The position numbers and the translations under genes were made by a program. Below the pieces are notes generated by a model that searched no databases, was not told the origin of the DNA, and saw only the letters and a program-made list of their open reading frames with translations. DNA of 64,000 nt from Apilactobacillus ozensis DSM 23829 = JCM 17196 (GTDB lineage Bacteria; Bacillota; Bacilli; Lactobacillales; Lactobacillaceae). Every line of letters starts with the position of its first letter. Positions within the stretch are counted from its first letter, which is position 1. The stretch covers positions 49,129-113,128 of the forward strand of contig NZ_AYYQ01000036.1 in NCBI RefSeq assembly GCF_001435995.1, in the 5' to 3' direction. Below, piece after piece: positions 34,987 through 49,228 of the stretch.

Positions 34987-34992
34987 ATTAAT

Positions 34993-36372
34993 TTATTTTT
35001 TATTAATTTTAGTTGAAATAATAGCTAAAAATTGTATGAAACCTAGGATTAGTAAAAATAACAGGGCAAACTTGAAACCAACCGTTGCATTTCCACCACT
35101 ATATGAACTATTAATACTTGTGATAATAGTTGAAATAATAGCCGTTCCAATTGCTCCGGCAAATTGTTGAACAGTAGTTAAAATAGCATTTCCATCTGAA
35201 GTTAGCTCACTTGATAAATATGATAAGCCTTGGGTCATTAGGTTTCCATATGACATACCAATTCCAATCATGACTATTATATAAGCTACTAAGAATATAG
35301 TGTCACTTATGTTAGATGATAATGTGAATAAAACCAACAATGATAAAATAACCATTGCAATACCAGTTAGTATTGGTTTTTTAGCTCCCATCCGGTCTAA
35401 TAAACTTCCAGATATTGGCGACATAATAGCCCCCATGATTGCACCTGGTAATAAAATCAAACCTGCTAAACTAGAACTACTTTTATTAATAATTTGAATG
35501 TAATTTGGCACGATAAATGCTAAACCAAGAATAATTAACTGATTAATAAAGAAAGCTACAGTATATTTAGCGTAAGAAACATTTTTAAGTATATCTACTT
35601 TTAAAATTGGATTTTTAGATTTATTTTGCATTTTAGTGAAAATAATTAATGCTAAAACACCAATTATTATTGGAATAAGTACTTGATAACTAAGCAGTGA
35701 ATTTTCACTAACATTACTGATTCCAATTATTAAACCGGCAAACATCAAAATTATTAGCACAAAACTTCCATAATCAAATTTAACATCATGTAATTCGTTT
35801 TGGAAAGTTTTAGGTATTGAAAAAGAACCTAGCAATAGTGATATGAGTAAAACTGGGATTAACAGGATAAATATATATCGCCACCCTAATGAGTTAACTA
35901 CTAATCCACCAAAAGCTGGTCCTATAGCAGAAGCAGAGGCTGTAATTAGCGATCCCACTCCCATCATAAATCCTAACTTACTTTTCGGTACGTTATCTAA
36001 AATAATATTAAACATTAACGGAAGCGCTATTCCAGTTCCAATTCCTTGAACAAATCTACCTAACAATAATATAAAAAAGTTAGGTGAAAAGGCATTCAGA
36101 ATTAACCCAATTACGAATATTACATTAGAAAACAAAAATAAGTTATAAGTTTTAAACTTATTTTTCAAAAATCTAGATAGTGGGATTATTGTCGATAAAA
36201 CCAATAAATAAAGAGTTGTAATCCATTGAACCGTTCCTAAACCAACGTTGAACTCCGACATTAAAGTTGGAAACGTTATATTCATGGAGGTCTCAACAGT
36301 CACACCTCCAAAGGTCATGACTCCGACCGATAATACAGCAAATAAAACATTAATTGATAATTTATTTTTCAT
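34993..36372 (-). CDS. MFS multidrug transporter, DHA2 family
   Basis: This 459-residue transporter has about 14 hydrophobic segments. VETSMNITFPTLMSEF (motif D1-like), PLSRFLKNKFKTYN (weak motif A), RFVQGIGTGIALPL (motif B) and ASAIGPAFGGLV (motif C) support a DHA2 exporter. The ATG overlaps the stop of a three-codon upstream frame (ATG ATT ATT TAA) that carries the strong AGGAGAAG site, so translation may be by re-initiation. No regulator is adjacent. Confidence 0.9.
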   Translation of the reverse strand: MKNKLSINVLFAVLSVGVMTFGGVTVETSMNITFPTLMSEFNVGLGTVQWITTLYLLVLSTIIPLSRFLKNKFKTYNLFLFSNVIFVIGLILNAFSPNFFILLLGRFVQGIGTGIALPLMFNIILDNVPKSKLGFMMGVGSLITASASAIGPAFGGLVVNSLGWRYIFILLIPVLLISLLLGSFSIPKTFQNELHDVKFDYGSFVLIILMFAGLIIGISNVSENSLLSYQVLIPIIIGVLALIIFTKMQNKSKNPILKVDILKNVSYAKYTVAFFINQLIILGLAFIVPNYIQIINKSSSSLAGLILLPGAIMGAIMSPISGSLLDRMGAKKPILTGIAMVILSLLVLFTLSSNISDTIFLVAYIIVMIGIGMSYGNLMTQGLSYLSSELTSDGNAILTTVQQFAGAIGTAIISTIITSINSSYSGGNATVGFKFALLFLLILGFIQFLAIISTKINKK

Positions 36373-36383
36373 TAAATAATCAT
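36372..36383 (-). promoter_or_regulatory. Three-codon upstream frame coupled to the MFS start
   Basis: ATG ATT ATT TAA begins eight to nine bases after a strong AGGAGAAG ribosome site, and its TAA overlaps the MFS ATG (TAATG). The MFS ATG itself lies about 20 bases from that site, so coupled re-initiation may set its translation. Confidence 0.5.
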
Positions 36384-36562
36384 TATATTTCTTCTCCTAT
36401 AATTTTTTTACGTCAAAGACGCAAAGTATTTCGAATTATAAAACATGAAAAAAATTATTGCAAGCATAAATTATTAAAAGAATAAACTAATATGTTAATA
36501 TACCGGATTTTTTATATTATAATAAGAACTGTTCAAATATAATTAAAAAGGAGTGTATCTTC

Positions 36563-37168
36563 ATGAGTGAAGAAAAAGATAAAAATATTTTTTCTCGTAA
36601 AATAACCGAGGAAGGTATGAAAATTCCATTTACTAAAATGTATTTGGTGAATACCCAAAAAATTGGTAAACGTTTTATTAACGAAGATAAGTACAATCGT
36701 CTTAGTAACCGTTTTTTAAAGCTATATGAATTTTTTATTAAAGCCGAAAAGGGTAATAACGAAGAACTTGACGAAAAATATGATAGTTATGGAAACGATG
36801 ACTTATACGTAAGTCCTAATGACTTTAGTACCTTTGTTAAATCTCAAAATTTAAATTCTAATGATATTGATGATTTAATCGCTGAAGCTAATGAATTAAA
36901 TCAATCTGTCGCTGACGACGGAAGTAATATTTCTGGAATGGCTCAATTGTTTGCTCTTATTATTGGAATTGTTATTGGAGCTGGTTTCATAAATTTAATT
37001 ACTTCACGTCCAATGCTAACCTTACTTTTAGTAGTTATTTTATTAGCAATTGGCGCTTTAGTTGGCTATGCGCAAAAGAATTTACATAACTACTTCATAC
37101 CTAAAAAAGATGACTTTTACACTTTTAAGAAGTACTTACGTAATACTAAAAATAGTATGGAACAATAA
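36563..37168 (+). CDS. Membrane protein with cytosolic N-terminal domain
   Basis: This 201-residue protein has a charged N-terminal part (residues 1-125), two hydrophobic helices (about 127-145 and 150-168) and a basic tail. AAAAAGGAG lies about 10 bases before the ATG. No family is recognised. It is monocistronic with a terminator behind it. Confidence 0.55.
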   Translation: MSEEKDKNIFSRKITEEGMKIPFTKMYLVNTQKIGKRFINEDKYNRLSNRFLKLYEFFIKAEKGNNEELDEKYDSYGNDDLYVSPNDFSTFVKSQNLNSNDIDDLIAEANELNQSVADDGSNISGMAQLFALIIGIVIGAGFINLITSRPMLTLLLVVILLAIGALVGYAQKNLHNYFIPKKDDFYTFKKYLRNTKNSMEQ

Positions 37169-37177
37169 TTTTAAATT

Positions 37178-37213
37178 TGAAGTAGGTAGCTAAATTGCTA
37201 TCTACTTTTTTAA
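37178..37213 (+). terminator. Intrinsic terminator
   Basis: AAGTAGGTAGC pairs with GCTATCTACTT around a short loop, followed by a T-run. Confidence 0.88.
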
Positions 37214-37231
37214 ATAAAACTGGAGTTTTTT

Positions 37232-37609
37232 ATGAATAATATTTGGCAATCAATGTATCAAACAGCAACTACGTGCAATGAACCGCGTGAAATTTCAAAA
37301 ACTATATACACAGGTAGTGTAGCTGCTTGTATCGCAACTGCTGACAATCATTTATATACTGGAATTTCTATTGATACCGCTTGTTCCATTGGCTTTTGTG
37401 CTGAAAGAAACGCTATTGGATCAATGCTTACAGATGGTCAAAACAAACTTACTAAAGTTTTAGCAGTAAAAGACGGTCAAGTAATAATGCCTTGTGGCGT
37501 ATGCCGAGAACTAATGATGCAGATTGACCCCAATATTAAAGTATTGACTAGTATCAATCCCCTTAAAACAGTTGCTTTAAATAAATTGATGCCTAATTAT
37601 TGGATGTAA
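37232..37609 (+). CDS. Cytidine deaminase-family protein
   Basis: This 125-residue protein has the zinc-dependent deaminase motifs CAERNAIG (Cys51 and Glu53 region) and PCGVCRELM (two cysteines near residues 88 and 91). This C/PCxxC pattern, rather than HxE, matches cytidine deaminase and the related blasticidin S deaminases. It deaminates cytidine or a near relative, in pyrimidine salvage. GGAG lies seven bases before the ATG. Confidence 0.9.
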   Translation: MNNIWQSMYQTATTCNEPREISKTIYTGSVAACIATADNHLYTGISIDTACSIGFCAERNAIGSMLTDGQNKLTKVLAVKDGQVIMPCGVCRELMMQIDPNIKVLTSINPLKTVALNKLMPNYWM

Positions 37610-37622
37610 ACTATATATGCAA

Positions 37623-37700
37623 TGTATACAAAGTATATTATATTTACTTGTATTCTAAATATACAAAATATGCAAAATTTACTTATATAATATGTATACA
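37623..37700. repeat. GTATAC repeat cluster A
   Basis: GTATAC (37624-37629), AAA, GTATAT (37633-37638), further ATACAAAATATGC-type sequence and a second GTATAC (37694-37699) fill the gap between the deaminase and aroK. Similar clusters flank the first ParA cassette and occur at 59.47 kb. Confidence 0.5.
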
Positions 37701-37705
37701 TAAAA

Positions 37706-37745
37706 ATAACCGTTAAAATCAAAATATTATAACGGCTATTTTTTA
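37706..37745. terminator. Intrinsic terminator of the aro operon
   Basis: AATAACCGTTA pairs with TAACGGCTATT around a loop, with A-run and T-run outside. It ends the shikimate operon on the minus strand. Confidence 0.8.
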
Positions 37746-38245
37746 TTTAAAATTTTAATAATATGTTCAACAACTTGCTGTTTATTTAAATTATCAACCT
37801 TAATTACATAATCAGCTAACTTATTGTAAATTGAATGACGTTGATTTTTTAATTCAATTAAACCACTATATCCTAATTCTTCGACTAGTGGACGGTCATT
37901 AACTTTATCTTTTTGAATTCGATTTTCAATCACTGCATCAGACGCGTCCAAATAAAATGTTGGGCAATGACTTTTCTGAATTGTTTTAAATCCTTCAGCA
38001 TTGATAGGAGTTCCACCACCAGTCGATAAAACACCATCTAAATGTATAACTTTATTTAAATTTTCATTTTCCAATTTTCTGAACTGATTCTCACCGTACT
38101 GATTAAAATATTTAGAAATTGGCATTTTAATAGTATCTTCAATTACTTTATCTAAATCATAGGTCTTCAAATTAGTTTGTTCTGATAATAATTGGGCTGT
38201 CGAACTTTTACCGCTCCCCATAAATCCAATTAAGATTGCTTGCAT
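37736..38245 (-). CDS. aroK: Shikimate kinase
   Basis: This 169-residue P-loop kinase phosphorylates shikimate. GFMGSGKSSTA (residues 7-17) is the Walker A loop, DLDKVIE binds shikimate, LSTGGGTP (about residues 74-81) is the conserved glycine loop and NDRPL the lid. It is the last gene of the operon, three bases after tyrA. Confidence 0.95.
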   Translation of the reverse strand: MQAILIGFMGSGKSSTAQLLSEQTNLKTYDLDKVIEDTIKMPISKYFNQYGENQFRKLENENLNKVIHLDGVLSTGGGTPINAEGFKTIQKSHCPTFYLDASDAVIENRIQKDKVNDRPLVEELGYSGLIELKNQRHSIYNKLADYVIKVDNLNKQQVVEHIIKILNKK

Positions 38246-38248
38246 TTG

Positions 38249-39097
38249 TTATCCCTCCATTTCTGTACGTGCTTTATTAGCTCGTTCAATCATTGAAAAT
38301 ATTGCATCTTTATCTTTTTCTTCCATAAAATGCTTAAAGTCCTGCAAATTCTTTTCATAAATATTTAGTTGCTCTAAAATTTTAGAAGAGTTATTTAAAA
38401 TTACATCCGTCCACATTTGAGCATCTCCCATAGCAATTCGAGTAGTATCGTATAATCCACCACCTGCTAAAGTTAAATCCACTCCTAATAATTTAGCTTC
38501 TTGGCTAACACTATCCATAAAATTAAAAATTAATGCATGCGGTAAGTGACTTACTAAACTTACAAAATCATCATGTTTACTAGCAGGCATATTTTTAAAT
38601 ATTACATTCGCTGGTCGCATTAATGCTTTAAACATATCTATTTGATTTTCAGTAGCGTTTTGGTTAACTAAAAAGTAATAATGCTTTTTAAATAAGTTAA
38701 TATCACTAAACTGACTGCCACTTAAATGTGAACCTGACATTGGATGACCACCTAAAAATTTAATCTTTGGATTAGTTAATTTTTCTGCCATTTTTAAAAT
38801 GCTAGCTTTACTACTACCTACATCAGTAACTAAAACTGAGTGGTCAAACTTAATTTTGTTAAGTTCATTAAGGTTTTGCTTAATCACATTCACCGAAGCA
38901 GCTAATATAATTATGTCCGCTGACTTTGCGCCTTGTACAAAGTTATCAATATATCTAACTATATTTTGTTTTTGTAGATAATCGATGTTTTGCTTATCAA
39001 TATCAAAAGCAGTAATTTGAGTGTCTACTCTACTTTTTGCAATAATTTTTGCAATTGAACCACCAATTAAACCTAATCCGCTAATGAAAACATTCAT
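38249..39097 (-). CDS. tyrA: Prephenate dehydrogenase
   Basis: This 282-residue enzyme oxidises prephenate to 4-hydroxyphenylpyruvate for tyrosine. GLGLIGGSIAK (residues 7-17) binds NAD, FLGGHPMSGSH (about 113-123) holds the active-site histidine region, and SLVSHLPHAL is typical of TyrA. No ACT domain is present, so feedback control may rest on the leader attenuator. It is four bases after aroA. Confidence 0.94.
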   Translation of the reverse strand: MNVFISGLGLIGGSIAKIIAKSRVDTQITAFDIDKQNIDYLQKQNIVRYIDNFVQGAKSADIIILAASVNVIKQNLNELNKIKFDHSVLVTDVGSSKASILKMAEKLTNPKIKFLGGHPMSGSHLSGSQFSDINLFKKHYYFLVNQNATENQIDMFKALMRPANVIFKNMPASKHDDFVSLVSHLPHALIFNFMDSVSQEAKLLGVDLTLAGGGLYDTTRIAMGDAQMWTDVILNNSSKILEQLNIYEKNLQDFKHFMEEKDKDAIFSMIERANKARTEMEG

Positions 39098-39101
39098 ACA
39101 A

Positions 39102-40364
39102 TTAACTCCTTAATGATTTTAAATCTTGAAAAAAGTTAGGATAAGATATATCCACACAATCCGCATTTTCAATAAAAATATCACTATTAAATAACTGACT
39201 GGCAATTTTAAGGGTCATTGCAATTCGATGATCATTATGACTATCTAAATGACTATTTTGTAATTGCCAATTACGGTTTCCATGAATTAAAAAGCCATCA
39301 TCTAATTCTTTAATATTAATTCCCAATTTTTTAAATTCTTCAACAACCGTTTTGATTCGGTCTGACTCTTTAAACCTTAATTCTTTTAAATAATGTAACT
39401 CGCTAATTCCATCTGCTCGGGCAGCTAACAATGCCAGTAGTGGCGCTTCATCAATTAATGCTGGAACTTCTTCTTTATTTAAGCTAATTGGATTTAATTG
39501 TGCCGACTTAACCACTAAATCAGCAGTTGGTTCAACGGTGTCTTTAAAATTAATAATCTGGATGTTAGCCCCCATTCGTTGCATCACTTTAACTAATCCC
39601 ATGCGAGTAGGGTTCAAGCCTACTGATTTAATGATTAAATTAGAGTTAGGTATTATCGTAGCCGCAACCATCCAAAATGCAGCTGAGGAAATATCACCTG
39701 GCACGATCAATGTTTGAGCTTTAATATCACAATGTGGAGTTATGATGATTGAATTGTCTATTTTTTGAATACTTTTAGGACTGAATAACTTTAGCATCCG
39801 TTCGGTATGGTCACGTGATAGGGTTGGTTCGATAATAGTAGTTTTATTTTTAGCATTTAAAGCTGCTAAAATAATCGCACTTTTAACTTGAGCGCTAGGA
39901 ATTGGCAATTCATAATTAATACCATTTAATTGTTTTCCATTAACATCAACTGGTAAAGTTCCGGTCTCACTAGTTTGAATGTCAGCATTCATTAATCGCA
40001 GTGGTTCAGCTACACGTGACATTGGACGCCTAGATAATGATTCATCACCAACTAAATTTGCTTTAAATGGTTGGGAGGACAATAAGCCCATTATTAATCG
40101 AGTTGTTGTTCCAGAATTACCCATATTTAAAGTATTGATAGGTTTACTCAAGTGTCCATTACCATGAATAACAACTTGATTTTCATGTTTTTCAATTTTA
40201 ACCCCCATCGCTTGAAATGCTTTAATAGTGGTCTGACAATCCGCAGAATTTAAAAAATTGTTAACAGTTGTTACTCCATTGCTCATTGCTCCAAAAATAA
40301 TGCTACGATGTGAAATGCTCTTATCACCTGGTACCGTAATTATTCCGTTTATGCCCATTGCCAT
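39102..40364 (-). CDS. aroA: EPSP synthase (3-phosphoshikimate 1-carboxyvinyltransferase)
   Basis: This 420-residue enzyme joins shikimate-3-phosphate and PEP. GDKSISHRSIIFGAM (residues 13-27), MGNSGTTTRLIMGLL (about 81-95), SRDHTERML and ELRFKESDRI (about 327-336) are the family's substrate loops, all intact. It lies 16 bp after aroC in the operon. Confidence 0.96.
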   Translation of the reverse strand: MAMGINGIITVPGDKSISHRSIIFGAMSNGVTTVNNFLNSADCQTTIKAFQAMGVKIEKHENQVVIHGNGHLSKPINTLNMGNSGTTTRLIMGLLSSQPFKANLVGDESLSRRPMSRVAEPLRLMNADIQTSETGTLPVDVNGKQLNGINYELPIPSAQVKSAIILAALNAKNKTTIIEPTLSRDHTERMLKLFSPKSIQKIDNSIIITPHCDIKAQTLIVPGDISSAAFWMVAATIIPNSNLIIKSVGLNPTRMGLVKVMQRMGANIQIINFKDTVEPTADLVVKSAQLNPISLNKEEVPALIDEAPLLALLAARADGISELHYLKELRFKESDRIKTVVEEFKKLGINIKELDDGFLIHGNRNWQLQNSHLDSHNDHRIAMTLKIASQLFNSDIFIENADCVDISYPNFFQDLKSLRS

Positions 40365-40380
40365 GTTTAAAACCTCTTTT

Positions 40381-41547
40381 CTAAAATGCTTTAATTTCTG
40401 CTCGGTAGTTATCTATCTGTGTTTTTAATCGATTAATATTACTACCATCGAAAGTATCTGTAATTATTTTTGCTAATTCAATAGCGACTACGCTTTCAAT
40501 CACAATGGATGCCGGTACGATTGCTGTGGTATCAGACCTTTCAACATTAGCCTTCATCGTTTCTTTAGTGTTAATGTCTGTACTTTGTAAGGCTTTGTAT
40601 AAAGTTGGAATTGGTTTCATGGCAGCTTTAATAATTAAAGGCATTCCATTGGTCATTCCACCTTCAAAACCACCTAAATGGTCAGAGTTACGGCCAAAGC
40701 CAGCATTTTGATGCCAATTAATTTCATCCATGACCTTACTGCCAGGATTATTGGCATCTTGAAAACCATCACCAATCTCAACACCCTTCATAGCGTTAAC
40801 GCCCATTACAGCTGCCGCTAATTTAGCATCTAATTTGGTATCCCAACTAACGTAGCTGCCTAGACCGGCTGGCACATTGTTAGCAACTACGCGAATTACA
40901 CCACCTAAAGTGTCACCAGCTCGCTTAGTGTCGTCAATTAGTTCATAGATTGCTGACACATTTGATTCATCAAAAATTCTTAAATCATTTTTTTCCACTT
41001 TATTAACGATTTCTTGAACATTAACTGAATTTTCCTTATCAGCCTTAATTCCTCCAATCGATTCAACATAGCCCACTAAAGAAATATCTAACTGGGACAA
41101 CAGCTGTTTACATATATTTCCAATCGCAACACGCATAGCTGTTTCACGAGCTGATGAGCGTTCCAACACATTTCTCAAATCATGGTGTCCGTATTTCATA
41201 CCGCCCACTAAATCTGCATGTCCTGGACGCGGACGGGTTACTTTACGCAGTGTGTTTTGTGCATTTTCAGGTTCAGTCGGACTCATAATTGACGACCAGT
41301 GTGCGTGGTCACGATTTTTAATCGTTAAGGCAATGGGAGAACCTAGTGTTTTTTGATGTCTTACGCCACCAGTAATAATCACTTGATCATGTTCAATTTT
41401 TTGACGATTGCCACGACCGTAGCCGCCCTGTCTTTTTGCTAAAGCCCTATTAATTTCATCTATATCAATGTGTAGACCTGCCGGAATGTCAGTTAAAATT
41501 CCACTTAATTCGGGTCCATGTGATTCACCTGCAGTTAAAAAATTCAT
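40381..41547 (-). CDS. aroC: Chorismate synthase
   Basis: This 388-residue FMN enzyme converts EPSP to chorismate. TAGESHGPELSGIL at the start, KRQGGYGRGNRQKIE (about 38-52), RPGHADLVGGMKYGHHDLRNVLERSSARETA (about 106-136) are the three signature regions. Full length. It follows the MFS/chorismate mutase fusion by five bases, so the enzyme that makes chorismate and the domain that uses it are adjacent. Confidence 0.96.
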   Translation of the reverse strand: MNFLTAGESHGPELSGILTDIPAGLHIDIDEINRALAKRQGGYGRGNRQKIEHDQVIITGGVRHQKTLGSPIALTIKNRDHAHWSSIMSPTEPENAQNTLRKVTRPRPGHADLVGGMKYGHHDLRNVLERSSARETAMRVAIGNICKQLLSQLDISLVGYVESIGGIKADKENSVNVQEIVNKVEKNDLRIFDESNVSAIYELIDDTKRAGDTLGGVIRVVANNVPAGLGSYVSWDTKLDAKLAAAVMGVNAMKGVEIGDGFQDANNPGSKVMDEINWHQNAGFGRNSDHLGGFEGGMTNGMPLIIKAAMKPIPTLYKALQSTDINTKETMKANVERSDTTAIVPASIVIESVVAIELAKIITDTFDGSNINRLKTQIDNYRAEIKAF

Positions 41548-41552
41548 ATTAT

Positions 41553-43001
41553 CTACTCCTTGTTCATCGTCTTTAATAGTTCTTGGTATTTCTTAGAATT
41601 ATCCATGATATTTTGGAAAATATTTTGATTAAAACCTTTAATTTCACTTTTATTCGTCATTTCATTAATTCGTTTTAAGACTACATTTTCTCTACTTTGA
41701 TCCTTAGTCGCAATATTTTGTTGCTTTTTAGCAGCGTAAACATCTTCTACCACTTTGAAACGTTTTTCCAAAAGTCTAACTATTTTAGAATCAATATTAT
41801 TAATCTTATTACGTGATTTTTCTAAATCATTATTTTGCGGAACTGTTTCGAAAATAACAATTGCTGAAATTAATCCCACAATCGCCACAATAATATCTCC
41901 ATTAACAATTTGTGGTGAACCGAATTTTGCCAGCAACCCAGTAATAATCGGTACCGTAAATGAAGCAATACTTCCAAAAATGAAGTATAATCCGGTAAAA
42001 ATTCCCTTATGCTTTGGGAAAATATTAAGTAAAATATTCAAAGCAATTTGCATAGCTCCACCTGATGCACTAAAGCCAAACAAGAAAGCAAATATCATTG
42101 AAACTAAAGTAATACGACTAAATGCAATAGTAGCAATGGATATAGTTGCTAGCATATTCATACCCAATAACCAATGGTTTCGCAAATTGAACTTTTTCAT
42201 CAATACAAAACTACTAAGCACTCCGGTAATCGATCCAATACTGTATAGTGATAATAAAAAATGTGCTGACCAATCATTAAATCCAATACTGTTAGCAAAA
42301 ATGGTTATCCACTGGGTAAACCAAATCATAACTGCCATAGAAGTGTACCCGTATACTAATAATGCTGAAGTTGCCATTATCTTACTTTTACCGTTTAAAT
42401 TCAATTGCGATTTAAGATTGCTATTTGCGTTAACTGATGCATGTGGAAATTTAATGGTCATTAAGTTTAATAAATTAAGTACCAAGATAATAGCTGGAAA
42501 AATAAATGATAAGCCAAACCACATTTGATTATCTTTTAGGAAAATAACCATTAATGGTAATATAAATTCTCCAATAGAGATAAAGGCCTTAATCAAGATG
42601 TTATTAGAACTGCTTTTCGCGTTAAATTCCGTAAATAATGGGTAGGTGGCTGAATCTAGCGCCGAATTAGATATACCCGCTACAATTGATAGTAAGTAGG
42701 CTAAGAAAATTTGATGATTAAAAGGAGTTGCAATGAAGAAAATTAGGTAAGACAACATTCCAATTATTAATGTAGTCTTTCGACCAAATCGATCTGAAAT
42801 GGCCCCCATGATTAAGTATGCTAATAATCGGCCAATTCCAATTCCCGATAAAACAAATGATGCTGTTGCTAAATTACTATGCCAGTTGGCAGATAGTTCT
42901 ATTAAATTTTGTGTCAAAATAATTAAGGCAAACCCATGCACTAAGTAATTCATGAATAACCCTATTTTTAAACGACTCTGCATTTTTTCCATACATATCA
43001 C
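41553..43001 (-). CDS. MFS transporter fused to an AroQ chorismate mutase domain
   Basis: This 482-residue protein has about 12 membrane segments (residues 1-385), with motif A-like MGAISDRFGRKTTL near residue 66, and then a ~90-residue AroQ domain (390-482). Aligned with the E. coli P-protein mutase, R397, R414, K425, D434, R437, E438, S469 and Q473 match R11, R28, K39, D48, R51, E52, S84 and Q88, so the active site appears complete. It should convert chorismate to prephenate on the cytosolic face of the membrane. The transported compound is unknown; shikimate-pathway acids are an inference from the operon. The frame is continuous with no stop between domains. Confidence 0.88.
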   Translation of the reverse strand: MICMEKMQSRLKIGLFMNYLVHGFALIILTQNLIELSANWHSNLATASFVLSGIGIGRLLAYLIMGAISDRFGRKTTLIIGMLSYLIFFIATPFNHQIFLAYLLSIVAGISNSALDSATYPLFTEFNAKSSSNNILIKAFISIGEFILPLMVIFLKDNQMWFGLSFIFPAIILVLNLLNLMTIKFPHASVNANSNLKSQLNLNGKSKIMATSALLVYGYTSMAVMIWFTQWITIFANSIGFNDWSAHFLLSLYSIGSITGVLSSFVLMKKFNLRNHWLLGMNMLATISIATIAFSRITLVSMIFAFLFGFSASGGAMQIALNILLNIFPKHKGIFTGLYFIFGSIASFTVPIITGLLAKFGSPQIVNGDIIVAIVGLISAIVIFETVPQNNDLEKSRNKINNIDSKIVRLLEKRFKVVEDVYAAKKQQNIATKDQSRENVVLKRINEMTNKSEIKGFNQNIFQNIMDNSKKYQELLKTMNKE

Positions 43002-43015
43002 ATCCTAACTATTTA

Positions 43016-43774
43016 CTATTGAATGGTTTTTAAAATGTTCTTTAGATTTTTTACACATATTTGACCAGGTGCTGATTCGTTATGCTGACTTAAGCTACCA
43101 AAGGTAAGGACCGAACCGCTAGTGTTACCACTAATGCGACTTGTTTTTCCTAACGCTCCCATAGACATCGTAATTATTGGCTCATCGTAACTATCAGCAA
43201 TATTTCTTGTAATTGTCATTAGTCTTAAGACGTCTTGGCTATTAGTTGGCATAAATGCTAACTTAAATATGTCTGCACTAACTGCTTGCATGTTAGCAAT
43301 TTTATTCAAGATAAAATCATTATCCGGAGTTATGCGAAAATCATGTAAGCTACCTAATGCTAATTTTTGATTAGCATGTAATTGCTGAATAACTTTACTA
43401 ATTAATTTAGTATCATGATTAATTTCTATATCTAAAATATCAAGACTATTATCTTGTGATAGCTTACTCAGCAGTTTTAAGTATTGCTGCTCTGATAAAT
43501 GATAATTGCCACCCTCGGCAATACTTCTAAAAGTGCATATTAGAGGAATCGATTTAGTTAGTTGACGAATCTTAGATAAGATAGAATGTAAGTATTCATA
43601 ATTGGGGATGCAACTTAAATAGTCAATTCGCCATTCAACTACGTCTGGTGCTAACTTCATAATTTGATTAACTTGCGATATAATTTGCAGCTTATCTTTG
43701 CCAGTTATTGATACAGCAATCTTAGGAATTCCTGAACCTAATAGTGTATTGTTAATTTTAATTGGCTTCGTCAT
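43016..43774 (-). CDS. aroD: 3-Dehydroquinate dehydratase, type I
   Basis: This 252-residue Schiff-base enzyme dehydrates 3-dehydroquinate to 3-dehydroshikimate. VVEWRIDYL (about 39-47), LGSLHDFRITP with the catalytic histidine (about 142) and ADIFKLAFMP with the Schiff-base lysine (about 170) are present, then TMSMGALGKTSRI near the C-terminus. Its start overlaps the aroE stop by 17 bp; it precedes the MFS fusion by 14 bp. Confidence 0.94.
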   Translation of the reverse strand: MTKPIKINNTLLGSGIPKIAVSITGKDKLQIISQVNQIMKLAPDVVEWRIDYLSCIPNYEYLHSILSKIRQLTKSIPLICTFRSIAEGGNYHLSEQQYLKLLSKLSQDNSLDILDIEINHDTKLISKVIQQLHANQKLALGSLHDFRITPDNDFILNKIANMQAVSADIFKLAFMPTNSQDVLRLMTITRNIADSYDEPIITMSMGALGKTSRISGNTSGSVLTFGSLSQHNESAPGQICVKNLKNILKTIQ

Positions 43775-44654
43775 GTGCTTTATCCTTTTCTAAAAGCTGT
43801 TGTTTAACAAAATCGATTGGCATATCTTGACCAGTCCATAGTTTAAAGGCTGCTGCCCCTTGTTCAATCATCATGCCTAAACCGTTATATACGTGCTTTA
43901 CACCAGCTTGCTTAGCAATTTTCATAAGTTTAGTTTCACGAGGCGCATATACTGTATCAAAAACCACCATATCTTTTTTAAACCAAGCCGGATTATTTAC
44001 TAAACTAACATCTGATAATTTTCCCATGCCTACGCCAGTTGCATCACAGTAAATGTCACATACTTGTAATGAACGTTTGAATTTTTCAGTATCCGATAAA
44101 TCAAATAATTCAGCGTGACTGTTGGTTTTTTGATTTATAATTTCAACATTTCTTTTTGCATTATCCCAATGCTGATCATGTTGATTAACTATGATAACTT
44201 TACTAGCACCATCTAAAGCTGATTGAATTGCAATCGGTGTACCGGCACCACCTGCTCCTGCTACTAAAATAGTTTTATCACTTACTGTATGTCCTTTACT
44301 CTTTAAATCATTGATAAATCCAATTCCATCAGTTGTATAACCAGTAAGTACACCATTATCATTAACAACTGTATTAACAGCTTGATTTAGTTCGGACGTA
44401 ATATCTAATTTATCTAGATATGGAATTATTTTTTGTTTATTTGGCATTGAAACATTAGATCCGCGCATTTCTAAGGTTCTAATAGCTTTTACACCATCCG
44501 ATAAATGTTCAGCATCAACATCAAAAGCTAAATAAACAAAGTTTAAATTAAGTTTTTGAAACGCTGCATTGTGCATTGTAGGTGACATGGAGTGGCGAAT
44601 TGGGTATGCCATCAAACCAATTAAAATTGTATGTCCATCAATAAAATTATTCAT
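43758..44654 (-). CDS. aroE: Shikimate dehydrogenase
   Basis: This 298-residue enzyme reduces 3-dehydroshikimate to shikimate. YPIRHSMSPTMHNAAF (about 17-32) and GSNVSMPNKQ (with the catalytic lysine) bind shikimate; GAGGAGTPIAI is the NADP loop, and NGLGMMIEQGAAAFKLW closes the C-terminus. The ATG at 44654 follows AGAAAGGAA; a longer frame to 44732 would run through the attenuator and is rejected. It is the first structural gene of the operon. Confidence 0.95.
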   Translation of the reverse strand: MNNFIDGHTILIGLMAYPIRHSMSPTMHNAAFQKLNLNFVYLAFDVDAEHLSDGVKAIRTLEMRGSNVSMPNKQKIIPYLDKLDITSELNQAVNTVVNDNGVLTGYTTDGIGFINDLKSKGHTVSDKTILVAGAGGAGTPIAIQSALDGASKVIIVNQHDQHWDNAKRNVEIINQKTNSHAELFDLSDTEKFKRSLQVCDIYCDATGVGMGKLSDVSLVNNPAWFKKDMVVFDTVYAPRETKLMKIAKQAGVKHVYNGLGMMIEQGAAAFKLWTGQDMPIDFVKQQLLEKDKAHDEAN

Positions 44655-44675
44655 AAATAAATTCCTTTCTAAAAC

Positions 44676-44711
44676 AAAAAAACCAGCTAGACGATAATCA
44701 TCTAGCTGGTT
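44676..44711 (-). terminator. Attenuator terminator
   Basis: AACCAGCTAGA pairs with TCTAGCTGGTT around a nine-base loop, followed on the minus strand by seven T, 22 bases before the aroE start. Its 5' arm includes the sequence that pairs with the antiterminator segment. Confidence 0.93.
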
Positions 44712-44859
44712 AATAATATTTAAGTTCCGCAAAAAAGAACTATCCTACTAATAATCAATTAACTAGATGAATTTCACACCTAGTTAATCAAATCAAAAAT
44801 GACTTTATTACTTAGATGCGAACGCATGTGTACGCTCGCATCATTAATACGATCGTACT

Positions 44860-44913
44860 TTACAAGTAATAATAGCCATAATATTGATTTAATTTAATAA
44901 ATTGATTATTCAT
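44860..44913 (-). CDS. Tyrosine-rich leader peptide (17 residues)
   Basis: The peptide reads MNNQFIKLNQYYGYYYL, with Tyr at 11, 12, 14, 15 and 16. GAAAGGAAG lies about nine bases before the ATG. It would sense charged tRNA-Tyr: a ribosome stalled at the Tyr codons would disrupt the first pairing and allow the antiterminator to form. It is the only frame in the leader with a good ribosome site. Confidence 0.85.
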   Translation of the reverse strand: MNNQFIKLNQYYGYYYL

Positions 44914-44948
44914 AATTAAGTTCTTCCTTTCTCGTTTAAGTTGTTATC

Positions 44949-44977
44949 ATTAAAACATTAATAAAATTAAAAATCAA
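44949..44977 (-). promoter_or_regulatory. Promoter of the shikimate operon
   Basis: On the minus strand TTGATT (44972-44977) and TTTAAT (44949-44954) are 17 bp apart. Transcription would begin near 44942, about 30 bases before the leader peptide. Confidence 0.7.
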
Positions 44978-45101
44978 GACTTTTTCTAATTTTTTTCTAA
45001 TTTAGCATAAATATCAAATGAAAAAAATTAAAAACTAATGTTTAGAAATTTAACATCCATTATCGTTATAATAAAAATAATCACATTAGGAGGAAATAAT
45101 C

Positions 45102-45578
45102 ATGATAATGAATTTAGCACAAATGCAATACATTCAAAAAGCTTTAAACTACGTTACTGAAACTTTAGATACTAAATATAAATACGTTCCTGTTTTTAAA
45201 CTAGATCATCAAATGATGACTGCTGAATTTTTTACAGAAGATGCTAATGGACAACCCGCTGAAATTAATATCGATGAAAATAATCAGTTAAGTGGATTTT
45301 ATAACACGAATGAAATTTATAAAAATTTAAAATTAGCGATTACGCAAGCTTATTTAGATTTTAATAACACTGAGAATTTCAATCATTCTATTATAGAAAA
45401 TCCGCGATTATTATTTAAGTGGTTAAGTCAAAAGGCCACCACCATTAAAAATAAGAAACCGATTGATTCCGAATTAATTAATGTTAAATTTTTCGATAAT
45501 AGTAAGTTATTAGAATTTATGAATGTATCAGAATATGCTGCTTTTGATTTTGTCAGTATACTCAAAGTAATGAAATAG
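45102..45578 (+). CDS. Hypothetical soluble protein between aro operon and ParA cassette
   Basis: This 158-residue protein has no signal peptide or membrane segment. It contains YKYVPVFKLDHQMMTAEFFTEDANGQPAEINIDENNQ, then helical sequence. AGGAGG lies eight bases before the ATG at 45102, so it is well translated. No family is recognised. GTATAC repeats begin within its last codons and continue behind it. Confidence 0.55.
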   Translation: MIMNLAQMQYIQKALNYVTETLDTKYKYVPVFKLDHQMMTAEFFTEDANGQPAEINIDENNQLSGFYNTNEIYKNLKLAITQAYLDFNNTENFNHSIIENPRLLFKWLSQKATTIKNKKPIDSELINVKFFDNSKLLEFMNVSEYAAFDFVSILKVMK

Positions 45579-45735
45579 TATACTAAGTAAATTATGTATA
45601 CATTTAATTTAAAGCAAAAATGGCATGAGATTATTATTCTCATGCCATTTTTACATACATATATAAAGTATATTTAGCATTCTTTGTATACATGTATACA
45701 AAATATTCTTAGTATAAATGTATACAAAATTAATT
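45556..45735. repeat. GTATAC repeat cluster B
   Basis: GTATAC occurs at 45556, 45578 and 45596, and the paired form GTATACATGTATAC is at 45686-45699, with another single copy at 45720. The cluster flanks the 3' end of the first partition cassette. It includes a terminator at 45617-45653. Confidence 0.55.
45617..45653 (+). terminator. Intrinsic terminator
   Basis: AAAAATGGCATGAGA pairs with TCTCATGCCATTTTT around a short loop. It ends the hypothetical gene at 45102. Confidence 0.9.
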
Positions 45736-46092
45736 TTATTGGATATTATTCAGCATTTGATAGAACATATCGCGTTGACGGTCTGTTAAATTTTTATTAA
45801 CGTAGTCGTCCATTAAATCATTTAATATATCGTTAAAAGAAGTATGCACACTACCTTTTTCTTTTGGAAAAAAGAAGTAAAGTAGTTTTAACTTTTCAAC
45901 AGTTTCATTGCTAACCCGTTGAGTGCTATTAATTGGTTGTTTTTTAGCTGGCTTTGTAACTGAATCATCTCTATTATTTAAAGCATCACTAATACTTCCA
46001 AAATCATTATTACCCGAAATATTAACTTGTTTATCCTTAAGGTTAGATTTATGCTTCAAAATTGGTTGTAATTTCTTAGTATCTTCACTCAT
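45736..46092 (-). CDS. ParA partner protein, ribbon-helix-helix-like (cassette 1)
   Basis: This 118-residue protein has a disordered basic N-terminal part (residues 1-60) and a C-terminal segment STQRVSNETVEKLKLLYFF...TSFNDILNDLMDDYVNKNL that looks like a strand and two helices of a ribbon-helix-helix domain. It follows parA by 13 bp, the usual place for the DNA-binding partner of a type Ib partition system. It probably binds the nearby centromere-like repeats. Confidence 0.7.
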   Translation of the reverse strand: MSEDTKKLQPILKHKSNLKDKQVNISGNNDFGSISDALNNRDDSVTKPAKKQPINSTQRVSNETVEKLKLLYFFFPKEKGSVHTSFNDILNDLMDDYVNKNLTDRQRDMFYQMLNNIQ

Positions 46093-46105
46093 TAAAATAT
46101 CCCTC

Positions 46106-46915
46106 TTAATTTAATTCTTGTTCATGGGCATCTAGTTCAGTTAATACATCATCAAATAAATCATGTGCTCGTTTATCCCATTGGTCTGGTTGGCCAGTGT
46201 AAGTAGTATTCAATGTAATGCCTTCAGAATCATATGCTTTCAAACGTTCTTGATGTTTAACAATTGTATGTAAAACATTGTCACCATACATTTCACGTGC
46301 ATCGTCCAATATTTTTTCGTCGACACGACCACCTGGACGTAGCATACAAGGTAAAATTCCTAAAATATCAATATTAATATCGTAATTATCAATTAAATAT
46401 TGCATATAGTTAATGTAAGTTTTTGCACCATCTAAACTAAGTTCTTGTGTTTGTAAAATGATAATACAATAATCGGCTGAAACCATGGCATTATCAGAAA
46501 AATCACTAATAGTAGGTGGTACATCTAGATATATCGCATCATATTTAGCTTTTAAGGGTTCAATTAGAGTTCTCAAGTAGCTAATTTGTTTAGTGTTATC
46601 GTCTGGAAACTTTTTCATTAGAATTTTTGGTAAGTCTTTAAACTGTGTATTGGCAGCAATTAAATCTAAATTAGGTAAAATTGGAGTAATTTGATTTTCC
46701 AAGTTACCTTCCAAAAATCCATTTGTAATCGTTTTTTCGATACTTGTTAAATTGCCAGTTTTAGCTAATACACTGGTAGCATTACCCTGTGGATCTAAAT
46801 CAATAACTAAAGTTTTACGATTTTTTCTAACTGCCGAAATATAAGATAGCATTGTAACTGTTTTAGTCTTACCAACGCCACCTTTAAAGTTTCCAACTAC
46901 GTAAGTTTTACCCAC
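46106..46915 (-). CDS. parA: ParA-family partition ATPase (cassette 1)
   Basis: This 269-residue ATPase has the deviant Walker A box GNFKGGVGKTKT (about residues 8-19), DLDPQGNATSVL (about 40-51) and YLDVPPTISDFSDNA (Walker B), and no N-terminal helix-turn-helix, so it is type Ib. It drives plasmid or chromid segregation by binding DNA with ATP. I prefer a GTG start at 46915 with GGAG 10 bases upstream; 46924 is too close to that site. Its sibling at 47830 has exactly the same length. Confidence 0.93.
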   Translation of the reverse strand: MGKTYVVGNFKGGVGKTKTVTMLSYISAVRKNRKTLVIDLDPQGNATSVLAKTGNLTSIEKTITNGFLEGNLENQITPILPNLDLIAANTQFKDLPKILMKKFPDDNTKQISYLRTLIEPLKAKYDAIYLDVPPTISDFSDNAMVSADYCIIILQTQELSLDGAKTYINYMQYLIDNYDINIDILGILPCMLRPGGRVDEKILDDAREMYGDNVLHTIVKHQERLKAYDSEGITLNTTYTGQPDQWDKRAHDLFDDVLTELDAHEQELN

Positions 46916-46924
46916 AAATATCAC

Positions 46925-47118
46925 GCTCCATTTTATTTATAATTATTATGCTAGACTAATTCGTAAAATATATCAAGTGTATACATATTTAAATGTTTGT
47001 TTTGTATACATTATTGAAAAAGGGTTAATACAGAATAAAATAGCGAATACAAAATATGCATGGTATATTAAATTTACAAATATACAACGTATACTTGTAT
47101 ACTTAGAATACTAAGTAT
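46925..47118. repeat. GTATAC repeat cluster C upstream of parA cassette 1
   Basis: Single GTATAC copies at 46979 and 47004 and the paired form GTATACTTGTATAC at 47089-47102 lie in the gap upstream of the first parA, plus related ATACAAAATATGC sequences. The position matches that of the octamer array upstream of the second parA, so it may be a centromere or operator. Confidence 0.55.
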
Positions 47119-47156
47119 ATAAAAAGATGCCTATTTTTAATTGAAGGCATCTTTCA
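47119..47156 (-). terminator. Intrinsic terminator
   Basis: AAAGATGCCT pairs with AGGCATCTTT on both strands. It ends the acetyltransferase gene at 47159. Confidence 0.85.
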
Positions 47157-47158
47157 AA

Positions 47159-47425
47159 TTATACTAATAAAGCATTATATTTATCTGTATGTTCAAAAAA
47201 TTTCACTGCATAGGAGCACACTGGTTTAATTAATAAATTATGCTGTTGTGCATAACTGATTACCTTTAAAATTAATTTTCTGGCAATTCCTTTACCACGA
47301 TAATTATTATTAACAAAAGTGTGATTGATGCTTAAAACATTATTGTTAATCTCAAATTTAATTTCAGCAATCAACTCATTATCATTTTGCATATAGAATC
47401 GACCTGGTTCATAACTAAAATCCAT
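47159..47425 (-). CDS. Small GNAT-like acetyltransferase (YidJ/Gcn5-related)
   Basis: This 88-residue protein has the short GNAT form: EIKFEINNNVLSINHTFVNNNYRGKGIARKLILKVISYA includes the acetyl-CoA motif (RGKGIARKL, about residues 50-58), and LLIKPVCSYAVKFFEH closes the domain. GGGGTG lies six bases before the ATG at 47425. The substrate is unknown. It sits between the two partition cassettes. Confidence 0.85.
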   Translation of the reverse strand: MDFSYEPGRFYMQNDNELIAEIKFEINNNVLSINHTFVNNNYRGKGIARKLILKVISYAQQHNLLIKPVCSYAVKFFEHTDKYNALLV

Positions 47426-47465
47426 ACAAATCACCCCATACATTATTTATACATACTATAGTACA

Positions 47466-47502
47466 AAAAAGCCTAGAAAATAAATTCTAGGTTTTTTATT
47501 AT
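47466..47502 (-). terminator. Intrinsic terminator
   Basis: AAGCCTAGAA pairs with TTCTAGGTTT around a short loop, with A- and T-runs. It ends the second partition operon. Confidence 0.9.
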
Positions 47503-47837
47503 TTATTTTTCTTACTAACATCACGTGCCTCTAAGGTATTAGCTTGTAAATCTACCGCTTCACGTTCATTTTTAGTAAGACTTTCCATGTAAGCAGCTAG
47601 GGCAATTTCAATTGCATCCTTTTGATTTTCTGCTAAACCAGTTAGGGCCATCGCCTGCAGCTTATTCCGAATATGATTATTAATCTTCAAGTTGGTATTA
47701 AAAGTAACCGAAGTTACATTTTTATCATTTTTATTACTATCTTTTTTTTCCTTAGTAGATTGTTTTTTATTGAAATCTTCAATACTAGCTTGATTTTTAG
47801 GTTTAATATCGCGATTGGATCGAACTAAACTACTCAT
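47499..47837 (-). CDS. ParA partner protein, ribbon-helix-helix-like (cassette 2)
   Basis: This 112-residue protein has a charged disordered N-terminus and then VTFNTNLKINNHIRNKLQAMALTGLAENQKDAIEIALAAY, a plausible ribbon-helix-helix DNA-binding unit (strand, then two helices). It overlaps parA by 8 bp. It probably binds the octamer array 0.8 kb upstream. A similar layout and size to the partner at 45736, but different sequence. Confidence 0.72.
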   Translation of the reverse strand: MSSLVRSNRDIKPKNQASIEDFNKKQSTKEKKDSNKNDKNVTSVTFNTNLKINNHIRNKLQAMALTGLAENQKDAIEIALAAYMESLTKNEREAVDLQANTLEARDVSKKNK

Positions 47838-48639
47838 TTTCCATCACTCCAATTCTCTCAATTAATTCTTTCACCACTTTATCATAAATAGCAAACACGC
47901 GACGATCAAACATCGTATTACTAGTAATTCCAGTTAACCCAAATCGTTTGATGCGTTGCATATAGTGAATTTTAGTTGCAAAAATATTACTATCACCAAA
48001 CTCATCAAAAGCTGCTTGCATCGCTACTTCGTCTACTGGGGCTGAAGCCTGCATCAATACAGCTAAAATTCCAATTACATCTAACCGTGGAGCTTTATAT
48101 GTATCAATGACTTGAGTTTGAATATATTCAATATATGCTTTAGCACCTTCAAATGAGTGTTCATGGGTTTGCATAATTACTAAACAATAGTCACTAGCAT
48201 ACAAAGCTGAATCAGTAATTAATGAAATAGTAGGGGGCGTATCAATAATTACATAGTCATAGTTACCCTTAATCTTAACTAAAAGATTATTAAAAGCGCG
48301 AACTCTTTCATTATAATCGGTATATTTTTCCATATACCTAGGAAATAGCGAAAAGTCTGGAGCTGATGCTAGTAAATCTAAATTGTCTTTAATATTAACT
48401 AATGATTGTGACAAGTCTTCATTTTCAATTGAAACCATTAAAGAATTATCAACATGACTAACTTGTCCATCAATATTTGCTTTTGTGTTCAATAAAATAT
48501 TAGTGGCATTGCCTTGTGGATCTAAATCTGCAATTAAAACTTTTTTATCCATTTTACTTAATTCATACCCAACTAAAGTTGCGTTAGATGTTTTACCCAC
48601 ACCGCCTTTGAAATTACCAAAAGTAATTACTTGCGTCAT
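47830..48639 (-). CDS. parA: ParA-family partition ATPase (cassette 2)
   Basis: This 269-residue ATPase begins MTQVITFGNFKGGVGKTSNATLV with the deviant Walker A box, then DLDPQGNATNIL and VIIDTPPTISLITDSA. Like its sibling it lacks a DNA-binding N-terminus (type Ib). The region upstream of its start is a centromere-like octamer array, and the RepA_N gene lies beyond it, divergent. This is a standard plasmid maintenance block. Confidence 0.94.
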   Translation of the reverse strand: MTQVITFGNFKGGVGKTSNATLVGYELSKMDKKVLIADLDPQGNATNILLNTKANIDGQVSHVDNSLMVSIENEDLSQSLVNIKDNLDLLASAPDFSLFPRYMEKYTDYNERVRAFNNLLVKIKGNYDYVIIDTPPTISLITDSALYASDYCLVIMQTHEHSFEGAKAYIEYIQTQVIDTYKAPRLDVIGILAVLMQASAPVDEVAMQAAFDEFGDSNIFATKIHYMQRIKRFGLTGITSNTMFDRRVFAIYDKVVKELIERIGVMENE

Positions 48640-48712
48640 AAAAATTACCCTCTTTTTTATAAAAATTGCGAATCCTTTTGCCTAATATTATAACAGCTAA
48701 AAATTATTTTTT

Positions 48713-48808
48713 GTAGTGCTGTAGTGCTGGCACTAGGTAGTGCTGTAGTGCTGTAGTTCTATAGTGCTGTAGTGCTGGCACTAGGTAGTGCTGTAGTGCT
48801 GTAGTGCT
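48713..48808. repeat. Octamer array block 1 (candidate parC centromere)
   Basis: GTAGTGCT is repeated in tandem about ten times (one copy GTAGTTCT, one ATAGTGCT), and is broken twice by inverted half-sites GGCACTA, giving the dyad TAGTGCTGGCACTA. It lies just upstream of parA cassette 2. Short tandem repeats like this bind ribbon-helix-helix partition proteins. Confidence 0.85.
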
Positions 48809-48834
48809 TATGCTTTTATTTTTCATAGTGTTAG

Positions 48835-48856
48835 AAACGTTGATTTAACAACGTTT
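48835..48856. repeat. Inverted repeat between array blocks
   Basis: AAACGTTG and CAACGTTT (8 bp, perfect) flank a six-base spacer. It lies between the two octamer blocks and could be a separate operator or a hairpin at the parA promoter. Confidence 0.6.
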
Positions 48857-48869
48857 AAAATTAAAAAAA

Positions 48870-48949
48870 GTAGTGCTGTAGTGCTGGCACTAGGTAGTGC
48901 TGTAGTGCTGTAGTGCTGGCACTAGGTAGTGCTGTAGTGCTGTAGTGCC
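48870..48949. repeat. Octamer array block 2 (candidate parC centromere)
   Basis: Eight GTAGTGCT units (the last ends GCC) and two inverted GGCACTA half-sites follow the same pattern as block 1. It lies between the ParA and RepA genes. Confidence 0.85.
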
Positions 48950-49005
48950 GCTTGTCAAAACGTATTGACTTTACCAAAATTAAGTAATAGGATTAATGCA
49001 TAAAC

Positions 49006-49042
49006 AAAAAAGCGACAAACCATTTTGGCTCATCGCTTTTCA
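49006..49042. terminator. Intrinsic terminator
   Basis: AAAAGCGA pairs with TCGCTTTT around a 19-base loop with inner pairing. It lies between the parC array and the repA leader and may insulate the two transcripts. Confidence 0.75.
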
Positions 49043-49062
49043 AATTAAATACATAGAAATAG

Positions 49063-49193
49063 AAAAAGAGCGTTGAATTATAATTACTGGTAATAATCAT
49101 AATTCAGCTACAAGTACCACAACTACTTGCTCGCCTTACGCTCTTATTATTTACTATTTAGTTATGTTAGCAACAAATGTTACTAACTATTCA
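49063..49193 (-). ncRNA. Counter-transcribed RNA controlling repA (copy 2)
   Basis: The RNA runs opposite to repA from about 49193 to the T-run at 49063-49067. Outer stem AAGAGCGT/ACGCTCTT (49067-49074, 49138-49145), recognition hairpin CAAGTA/TACTTG (49111-49116, 49124-49129, seven-base loop) and an AT-rich hairpin (about 49074-49105) mirror the RNA at 19850-19957. Stems are kept although their sequence differs, which supports a conserved structure. Confidence 0.75.
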
Positions 49194-49199
49194 ACTACC

Positions 49200-49228
49200 A
49201 TTATAGTAGATAATGAGAGATTTTTCAA
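49200..49228 (-). promoter_or_regulatory. Promoter of RepA antisense RNA (copy 2)
   Basis: On the minus strand TTGAAA (49223-49228) and TATAAT (49200-49205) are 17 bp apart, facing away from repA. The same -35 and spacing occur at the first RepA locus. Confidence 0.85.

Follow-up and report, generated by a model that had tools for sequence, protein, structure and literature searches.

The window analysed here is a stretch of 64,000 nucleotides from Apilactobacillus ozensis DSM 23829 (genome of 1.48 Mb, 99.96% complete), part of a contig of 159 kb, and carries on its minus strand an operon with the gene order aroE, aroD, MFS–CM, aroC, aroA, tyrA and aroK (Table 1), which appears to make tyrosine. 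The third gene encodes an MFS transporter fused to an AroQ chorismate mutase (CM) domain, and its nearest named relative, at 79% identity, is that of Apilactobacillus xinyiensis. Its location between aroD and aroC and its continuous frame of 482 codons, both given in a preliminary description of the sequence, were confirmed, with the addition that the frame, counted from a GTG, lies on the minus strand, which had been left unstated; the plus-strand translation of positions 41553–43001 contains many stops. An AGGA-type ribosome site suits the ATG at 42992, three codons downstream of the GTG, better than the latter, and the protein is accordingly likely to comprise 479 residues. For aroE, a longer call of 324 residues from 44732 would run through the terminator preceding the gene, and ATG 44651 is the probable start instead.

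Table 1. Features of the aromatic operon of A. ozensis and of its leader, with positions in the window.
Feature	Position	Strand	Basis or remark
Leader peptide MNNQFIKLNQYYGYYYL, 5 Tyr of 17	44860..44913	-	ORF behind an AAGGAAG-type site
Leader hairpin, candidate antiterminator	44755..44791	-	3' arm CATCTAG could pair with terminator 5' arm CTAGATG
Intrinsic terminator just before aroE (putative attenuator)	44681..44711	-	Terminator prediction, covariation
aroE, quinate/shikimate dehydrogenase-type	43758..44651	-	Probable start ATG 44651
aroD, type I 3-dehydroquinate dehydratase	43016..43774	-	Profile matches
MFS–chorismate mutase fusion gene	41553..43001	-	Frame, Pfam, model; likely start ATG 42992
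MFS transporter domain, residues 1–386	41844..43001	-	Pfam and model; putative shikimate/quinate importer
Linker, residues 387–392	41826..41843	-	Model
AroQ chorismate mutase domain, residues 393–479	41565..41825	-	Pfam, alignment, model
aroC, chorismate synthase	40381..41547	-	Profile matches
aroA, EPSP synthase	39102..40364	-	Profile match
tyrA, prephenate dehydrogenase	38249..39097	-	Profile matches
aroK, shikimate kinase	37736..38245	-	Profile matches

The segment adjoining the operon (45736–50267) carries what we take to be two ParA-like ATPases, small partner genes and a replication-initiator-like gene, and open reading frames of similar size at the matching place in A. xinyiensis (L103) hint at a plasmid-derived neighbourhood. 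In Nicoliella spurrieriana (L164; NZ_CP093360.1) the same operon and fused gene are found near trp genes on a replicon of 344 kb that its record gives as a plasmid. Further along the window, positions 51260–54640 encode a large repeat protein of 1126 residues with many WNTSNV-type repeats.

Both halves of the fusion exceed their Pfam cut-offs, with an MFS_1 match over residues 15–348 (122 bits against a cut-off of 33.4) and a CM_2 (PF01817) match over residues 397–474 (61 bits against 27). The division into a 12-segment transporter and an AroQ domain that was proposed earlier is borne out by these matches and by an AlphaFold2 model (23-sequence alignment, mean pLDDT 81.5, pTM 0.70), in which 12 helices of membrane type can be made out up to residue 386 and a linker of about six residues leads to a three-helix mutase protomer (helices 393–428, 435–448 and 452–479). 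In MFS proteins with 12 helices the N- and C-termini are both cytoplasmic, and the mutase domain is therefore expected on the cytoplasmic face of the membrane; the protein would presumably form a dimer by way of this domain.

All eight catalytic positions are kept in the mutase domain, as had been stated from its alignment with the E. coli enzyme: R397, R414, K425, D434, R437, E438, S469 and Q473, which we take to be the equivalents of E. coli R11, R28, K39, D48, R51, E52, S84 and Q88. Seven of them, all but S84, agree with the active-site residues that the accessible part of PMC5526877 gives for the B. subtilis domain. Among 33 distinct fused sequences the equivalents of R11, R28, K39, D48, E52 and S84 are invariant, that of R51 is kept in 32, and that of Q88 in 30 and replaced by Glu in the other three. 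Conservation in 32 distinct free mutases from the fetched loci is lower at D48 (25/32), S84 (17/32) and Q88 (14/32), and in the three shikimate kinase-fused mutases examined D48 and E52 are both changed. Comparison of the window gene with that of A. xinyiensis gave a dN of 0.105 and a dS of 1.43 for the MFS part, whereas linker and mutase together have a dN of 0.305 and a dS of 0.98; both parts are thus constrained, the mutase part less tightly, and the mutase evolves faster than the transporter. The CM_2 match of the fusion is the sole one that profile searches returned from the A. ozensis genome, where no match to an AroH-type mutase was found, and the fused AroQ domain, the only chorismate mutase detected in its genome, looks catalytic.

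The fusion is real. The recurrence of the frame, present in at least 48 of 301 genomes of the family, rules out an assembly error or frameshift, and the Pfam scores together with the catalytic positions rule out a chance domain match. That the gene is an artefact of assembly or gene calling, or that its mutase domain is dead, is extremely improbable: the domain does score below one NCBIfam cut-off, reaching 60.1 bits with the Gram-positive mutase equivalog TIGR01805 (cut-off 71.2), to which it is therefore not assigned, but the same frame is repeated across the family, six of the eight catalytic positions are invariant in the fused sequences and dN lies below dS in both parts.

The sample of 301 family genomes includes 158 with a CM_2 match. 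The 48 fused cases are a lower bound, the place of the mutase not having been recorded for eight of the 158; an MFS gene directly precedes a free mutase in 19 others, a mutase fused to shikimate kinase precedes the MFS gene in four, a matching MFS gene (E up to 1e-30) lies elsewhere in 41 and none is found in 46. Some of the genes counted as elsewhere belong to an aro operon but stand apart from the mutase (L138–L140, L161 and L162). The union of both domains in one frame is thus not confined to a single assembly, a possibility that the preliminary description had raised, and extends over 11 genera. Within Apilactobacillus the genes are fused in G000 and G023 and split in G141, G164, G223 and G239, with no CM_2 match in nine further sampled genomes of the genus. 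A scan across the order (395 genomes, of which 72 had a match at E up to 1e-40) found a single open frame through the mutase domain only in matches from Lactobacillaceae; those of other families stop by about residue 402 or continue through stop codons.

Two arrangements in the same family bear comparison with the fusion. The free AroQ mutase just after the MFS gene in some Limosilactobacillus and other Apilactobacillus involves the same two genes in the same order, mostly no more than 20 nt apart, but yields two separate proteins. The aroK::CM fusion of other Lactobacillaceae is likewise a mutase fusion within an aro operon, but one in which the mutase is joined to shikimate kinase and, in the three cases inspected, has lost D48 and E52. 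Shikimate kinase–AroQ fusions of 262–266 residues were noted in other genera at L125:5110, L126:5684 and L127:8070–8870.

Profile searches of the A. ozensis genome returned no match to DHQ synthase or to class I DAHP synthase (PF00793), each of these searches being positive in 11 of 14 known genomes used as a control; the pathway searches covered class I DAHP synthase and type I dehydroquinase, as distinct from the type II families PF01474 and PF01220. The genome nevertheless keeps a quinate-type aroE together with aroD, aroK, aroA, aroC and tyrA. Since the early enzymes have no match and the later genes are kept, an intermediate of the pathway must be imported. A set of 40 genomes, including that of A. 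ozensis, shares the lack of DHQ synthase and an MFS gene linked to the mutase (fused in 27, adjacent in 12 and preceded by the mutase in one). In this set the PF00793 match is absent from 37 genomes, AroD is present in 24 and absent from 16, and AroE is present in 25 and absent from 15. Neither AroD nor AroE is found in 15 genomes (G040, G041, G063, G066, G121, G145, G154, G155, G167, G188, G194, G207, G208, G224 and G239), and two of the three PF00793-positive genomes of the set (G121 and G145) are among them. Because AroK, AroA and AroC alone remain in these 15, shikimate is the sole pathway compound that fits, with the qualifications that in G063 the MFS match is interrupted by one TAG, in G121 it is shortened (query 5–341), in G145 aroC is in two pieces and G040 is 87% complete.

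The gene sets range from the complete pathway, through loss of aroF–aroB, to loss of aroE–aroD. In A. xinyiensis (G023) aroD (L103:7649–8242 and upstream) is interrupted by a stop codon in frame, which would suit a pathway that is being reduced to shikimate alone. The MFS gene, with or without the mutase, has a conserved place before aroC, one that is held by aroF–aroB in L127 and L142 (AroF and AroB being Pfam-confirmed in L091 and BLAST-matched in L127 and L142); in other genomes that have aroF–aroB these genes lie away from aroC, as in L129 and L148. DHQ synthase is kept in 21 of the 48 fused genomes, for which import is not the only source.

In numbers of genomes, DHQ synthase is missing from 39 of the 67 in which MFS gene and mutase are linked as against four of the 46 mutase-containing genomes without an MFS match at E 1e-30, from one of the four with the mutase before the MFS gene and from 10 of the 41 with the MFS gene elsewhere. 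Counted by genus, a linked genome without DHQ synthase occurs in 10 of the 16 genera that have a linked genome, and a genome without DHQ synthase in seven of the 18 genera that have none. No association between linkage and loss was seen inside mixed genera, and the association was set aside as statistical proof, being driven by lineage; for this reason the argument for import rests on the logic of the pathway.

The same logic bears on the direction of transport. MFS proteins can export, and the top rows of a Foldseek search are the NorA efflux pump; the carrier might accordingly expel a pathway product or a toxic acid and import no precursor. This is, however, very unlikely, as genomes with no match to AroB, AroD and AroE, and mostly none to AroF, cannot make shikimate by the known route, and in the operons read they keep AroK, AroA and AroC along with the linked MFS gene, enzymes that would be left without a substrate unless there were another importer.

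The relatives of the operon genes point to the compounds that an inward carrier would handle. The AroE of the operon is 61–64% identical to the AroEs of Lactobacillaceae clusters containing MFS paralogues and AroD, and 34–39% identical to AroEs encoded beside aroF–aroB. In a 52-row AroE tree, which carries a long-branch warning, the window AroE and all 13 quinate-cluster AroEs belong to one group of 43 rows (SH-aLRT 100); five of the six aroFB-labelled AroEs lie outside this group, together with those of three MFS–aroC operons (L113, L121 and L122) and one other, and the sixth lies inside, in a quinate cluster next to aroFB. Among MFS relatives from outside the family (L153–L159), a quinate-type AroE and a LysR gene stand beside the MFS gene in all seven loci and aroD in six. 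The MFS paralogues of L129–L134 and L153–L159, with a quinate-type aroE and mostly aroD and LysR, probably belong to quinate/shikimate gene sets; a FMN/FAD reductase was noted in the quinate-type clusters of L129 (by Pfam, alongside a LysR regulator) and L157 (by BLAST). E. coli YdiN is 34% identical to the fusion over 81% of the query, and the E. coli cluster ydiM–ydiN–ydiB–aroD, whose ydiB is annotated as quinate/shikimate dehydrogenase, resembles the present case in placing a homologous MFS gene beside such a dehydrogenase and AroD; it differs in that YdiN and YdiM have no mutase domain and are encoded outside any chorismate–tyrosine operon. By homology and by linkage to quinate-type AroE and AroD, the transporter groups with these YdiN-like, shikimate/quinate-linked MFS proteins.

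A structure search with the model, which bears on the MFS part (at least one-fifth of the rows span residues 1–390 only), matched the E. coli D-galactonate:H+ symporter (Z 41.5, rmsd 2.5, 366 aligned residues), with SLC37A4, sialin, OAT4/URAT1 and NorA as other neighbours. These are compatible with an organic anion as the substrate of the modelled carrier and are not specific for one. The best NCBIfam MFS matches fall far under their cut-offs (MhpT, 44.7 bits against 410; aromatic acid/H+ symport, 43.6 against 418.55), and the specificity of the MFS part is unreadable from its sequence. Gene content and neighbourhood nevertheless make the transporter of the fusion the best candidate for a shikimate/quinate importer, and the transport of a pathway acid suggested in the preliminary description stands in this narrower form, with shikimate and/or quinate as the most likely substrate and inward as the most likely direction.

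It is probable, in our view, that an inward transporter of shikimate and/or quinate has been joined to the only chorismate mutase detected in the cell and that the operon serves as a salvage route to tyrosine. The transporter would bring the plant acid into the cell; quinate-type AroE and AroD would convert quinate or dehydroquinate to shikimate; AroK, AroA and AroC would carry shikimate to chorismate; and the AroQ half of the fusion, facing the cytoplasm, would turn chorismate into prephenate, from which TyrA would lead on to tyrosine, so that import would stand in for DAHP synthase and DHQ synthase. Membrane channelling, which the preliminary description had put forward, is set aside, because AroK, AroA and AroC separate shikimate from chorismate and the likely product of the transporter is not the substrate of the mutase. 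Its other suggestion, a coupling of transport to flux at the chorismate branch point, is doubtful for A. ozensis, whose genome has no Chorismate_bind match and no Pfam prephenate dehydratase match and thus no detected rival user of chorismate; of the 40 genomes without DHQ synthase, however, 21 do have a Chorismate_bind match. A Pfam prephenate dehydratase match is likewise missing from all 40.

A protein of 175–185 residues was noted in or near many related aro loci (L090:9212–9739, L095:9096–9623, L046:9268–9822, L034:7520–8068 and others; 43 rows). Five of 12 members match the Pfam PDT profile weakly (best E 0.0005), and its model is closest to prephenate dehydratases (the top three, Z 11.1–10.4), with no ACT domain; a profile search of solved structures with the 175-residue operon protein gave chance rows only. 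No such short, ACT-less prephenate dehydratase-like protein was found within the 64-kb window, and a phenylalanine branch may be encoded elsewhere in the genome.

Expression of the operon may respond to its end product. Upstream of aroE, on the minus strand, a short open reading frame rich in tyrosine codons precedes an intrinsic terminator, an arrangement that on sequence evidence corresponds to an attenuator. The leader RNA is highly stable (331 nt including the leader peptide, z −10.2) and ends in the terminator at 44711–44681; an alternative pairing of 7 nt between the leader hairpin, a candidate antiterminator, and the terminator was seen by inspection. The leader peptide is conserved as a Tyr/Phe-rich peptide, typically ending in YYGFYYFR (window leader region 44660–44990). 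A criterion set after this leader had been seen called for an open reading frame of 8–40 codons with, near its end, eight residues of which five are aromatic, including two Tyr; it was applied to the 500 nt before the first gene and to the first 90 nt of that gene. By this criterion a leader is present in 58 of 66 aro operons, where the remaining sequence of these loci would predict 1.06; many of the loci are close relatives and do not represent independent events. With an earlier rule, which asked for four Tyr among seven residues, the count was 36 of 67. A terminator-like hairpin accompanies the leader in 45 of the 58 operons, the picks in L036 and L091 being doubtful, and among 16 hand-chosen terminators eight of the 13 pairs show pair-keeping changes on both sides. 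A search with the Rfam models, T-box included, gave no match in ten loci at gathering scores, and in positions 34000–50500 of the window at E up to 1 it gave a single weak one, between the leader hairpin and a microRNA model (32 bits against a gathering score of 83), which was taken as chance. The whole looks like ribosome-mediated attenuation by tyrosine, and in relatives by phenylalanine, in which the leader peptide and the terminator would switch the operon on when charged tRNA-Tyr is scarce; the accessible part of PMC2965389 (2010) was set beside this reading.

Why the two proteins should be covalently joined is a separate question. The spacing of unfused MFS–CM pairs ranges from −56 to +19 nt and stays within 20 nt in 19 of the 21, so that small changes would suffice for their fusion, and fused and split states persist in one genus. 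The joining may thus have been neutral, adjacent and translationally coupled genes being merged by loss of a stop with co-expression as the gain at most, an explanation that we consider a serious possibility short of being probable. It has to contend with the neighbour pairs of the same loci, where 31 MFS::CM and three aroK::CM fusions were counted beside the 21 unfused MFS–CM pairs, but no fusion in five equally tight pairs: CM–aroC (58 pairs), tyrA–aroK (56), aroA–tyrA (55), aroC–aroA (39) and aroE–aroD (24). These loci were picked for having both an MFS gene and a mutase, and many are close relatives. The spread of the fused state over 11 genera also speaks against a neutral event, with the reservation that the loci are not independent and that protein ends differ in their tolerance of fusion.

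The history of the fused state was followed in trees of the MFS part. In an 87-row tree with 32 fused rows, in which L146 is labelled as elsewhere though counted as adjacent in the genome tally, six changes of state are needed and at least three are forced by well-supported branches. A single clade of 31 fused forms was rejected (p-AU 2.6e-5) in a 74-row tree, from which every other paralogue had been dropped along with six rows that were long or divergent (one of these six being fused); fusion has therefore been gained or lost more than once.

Both the rejection of a single fused clade and the lack of fusion in the five other neighbour pairs would also suit a regulatory fusion, in which the mutase domain senses chorismate or prephenate and throttles import. 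The closest parallel in working principle, the only level at which they are compared here, is given by the DAHP synthase–mutase fusions (B. subtilis AroA(G) and Listeria DAHPS), in which an AroQ domain is likewise attached to the feeding step of the pathway; according to the accessible part of PMC5526877, DAHP synthase is regulated by binding of chorismate or prephenate to the fused mutase domain, which is thought to be mainly regulatory. Import seems to replace DAHP synthase in A. ozensis. In those proteins, however, the mutase forms the N-terminal part and is joined to an enzyme, whereas here it is C-terminal, has a transporter as its partner and, as the only one detected in the cell, must catalyse. 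Unfused pairs are moreover found in many species, including some of the same genus; the loci behind the pair counts were preselected, with many close relatives, and three of them carry aroK::CM instead; and fusion may simply be better tolerated by a domain that is short, helical and carried on a cytoplasmic tail. On our analysis, regulation of import by the mutase domain is thus a tentative and rather unlikely explanation. A fuller version is offered as a speculation of low probability: the transporter would have replaced DAHP synthase as the committed entry step, with the captured mutase acting as both sensor and enzyme, its dimer bridging two carriers and chorismate or prephenate gating the uptake of shikimate, in a fusion gained or lost more than once and under a Tyr/Phe leader attenuator. 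Under the more probable reading, import of shikimate and/or quinate into a tyrosine salvage route, the likeliest gains of the covalent link would be a fixed 1:1 supply of the entry and exit steps, or feedback of chorismate or prephenate onto the carrier.

The known fusion partners of chorismate mutase are prephenate dehydratase, prephenate dehydrogenase, cyclohexadienyl dehydratase and DAHP synthase, as far as the accessible parts of PMC10520331, PMC5526877, PMC4921024 and PMC11237513 go. PheA (CM–prephenate dehydratase) and TyrA (CM–prephenate dehydrogenase) share with the present protein an AroQ domain fused to a protein of the same pathway, but their partners use the product of the mutase, whereas that of the present protein is a carrier which acts several steps before it. 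No mutase–transporter fusion was found in the accessible parts of the fusion surveys PMC4921024 and PMC11237513 or of the mutase paper PMC10520331, nor any description of one in the literature searched, which lay mostly outside subscription journals.

A shikimate-dependent route in lactobacilli has been inferred by a genome survey (PMC9026213), in whose accessible part no transporter is named, and the fusion supplies a candidate importer for it. Such an importer would account for a possible synthesis of tyrosine in lactic acid bacteria of flowers and bees whose pathway lacks its first half. In the public record of Nicoliella spurrieriana the fused protein is annotated as 'MFS transporter' only, and metabolic models can miss a mutase that is hidden in this way. 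If the mutase does gate the carrier, control of entry into the pathway would have moved from an enzyme to a transporter.
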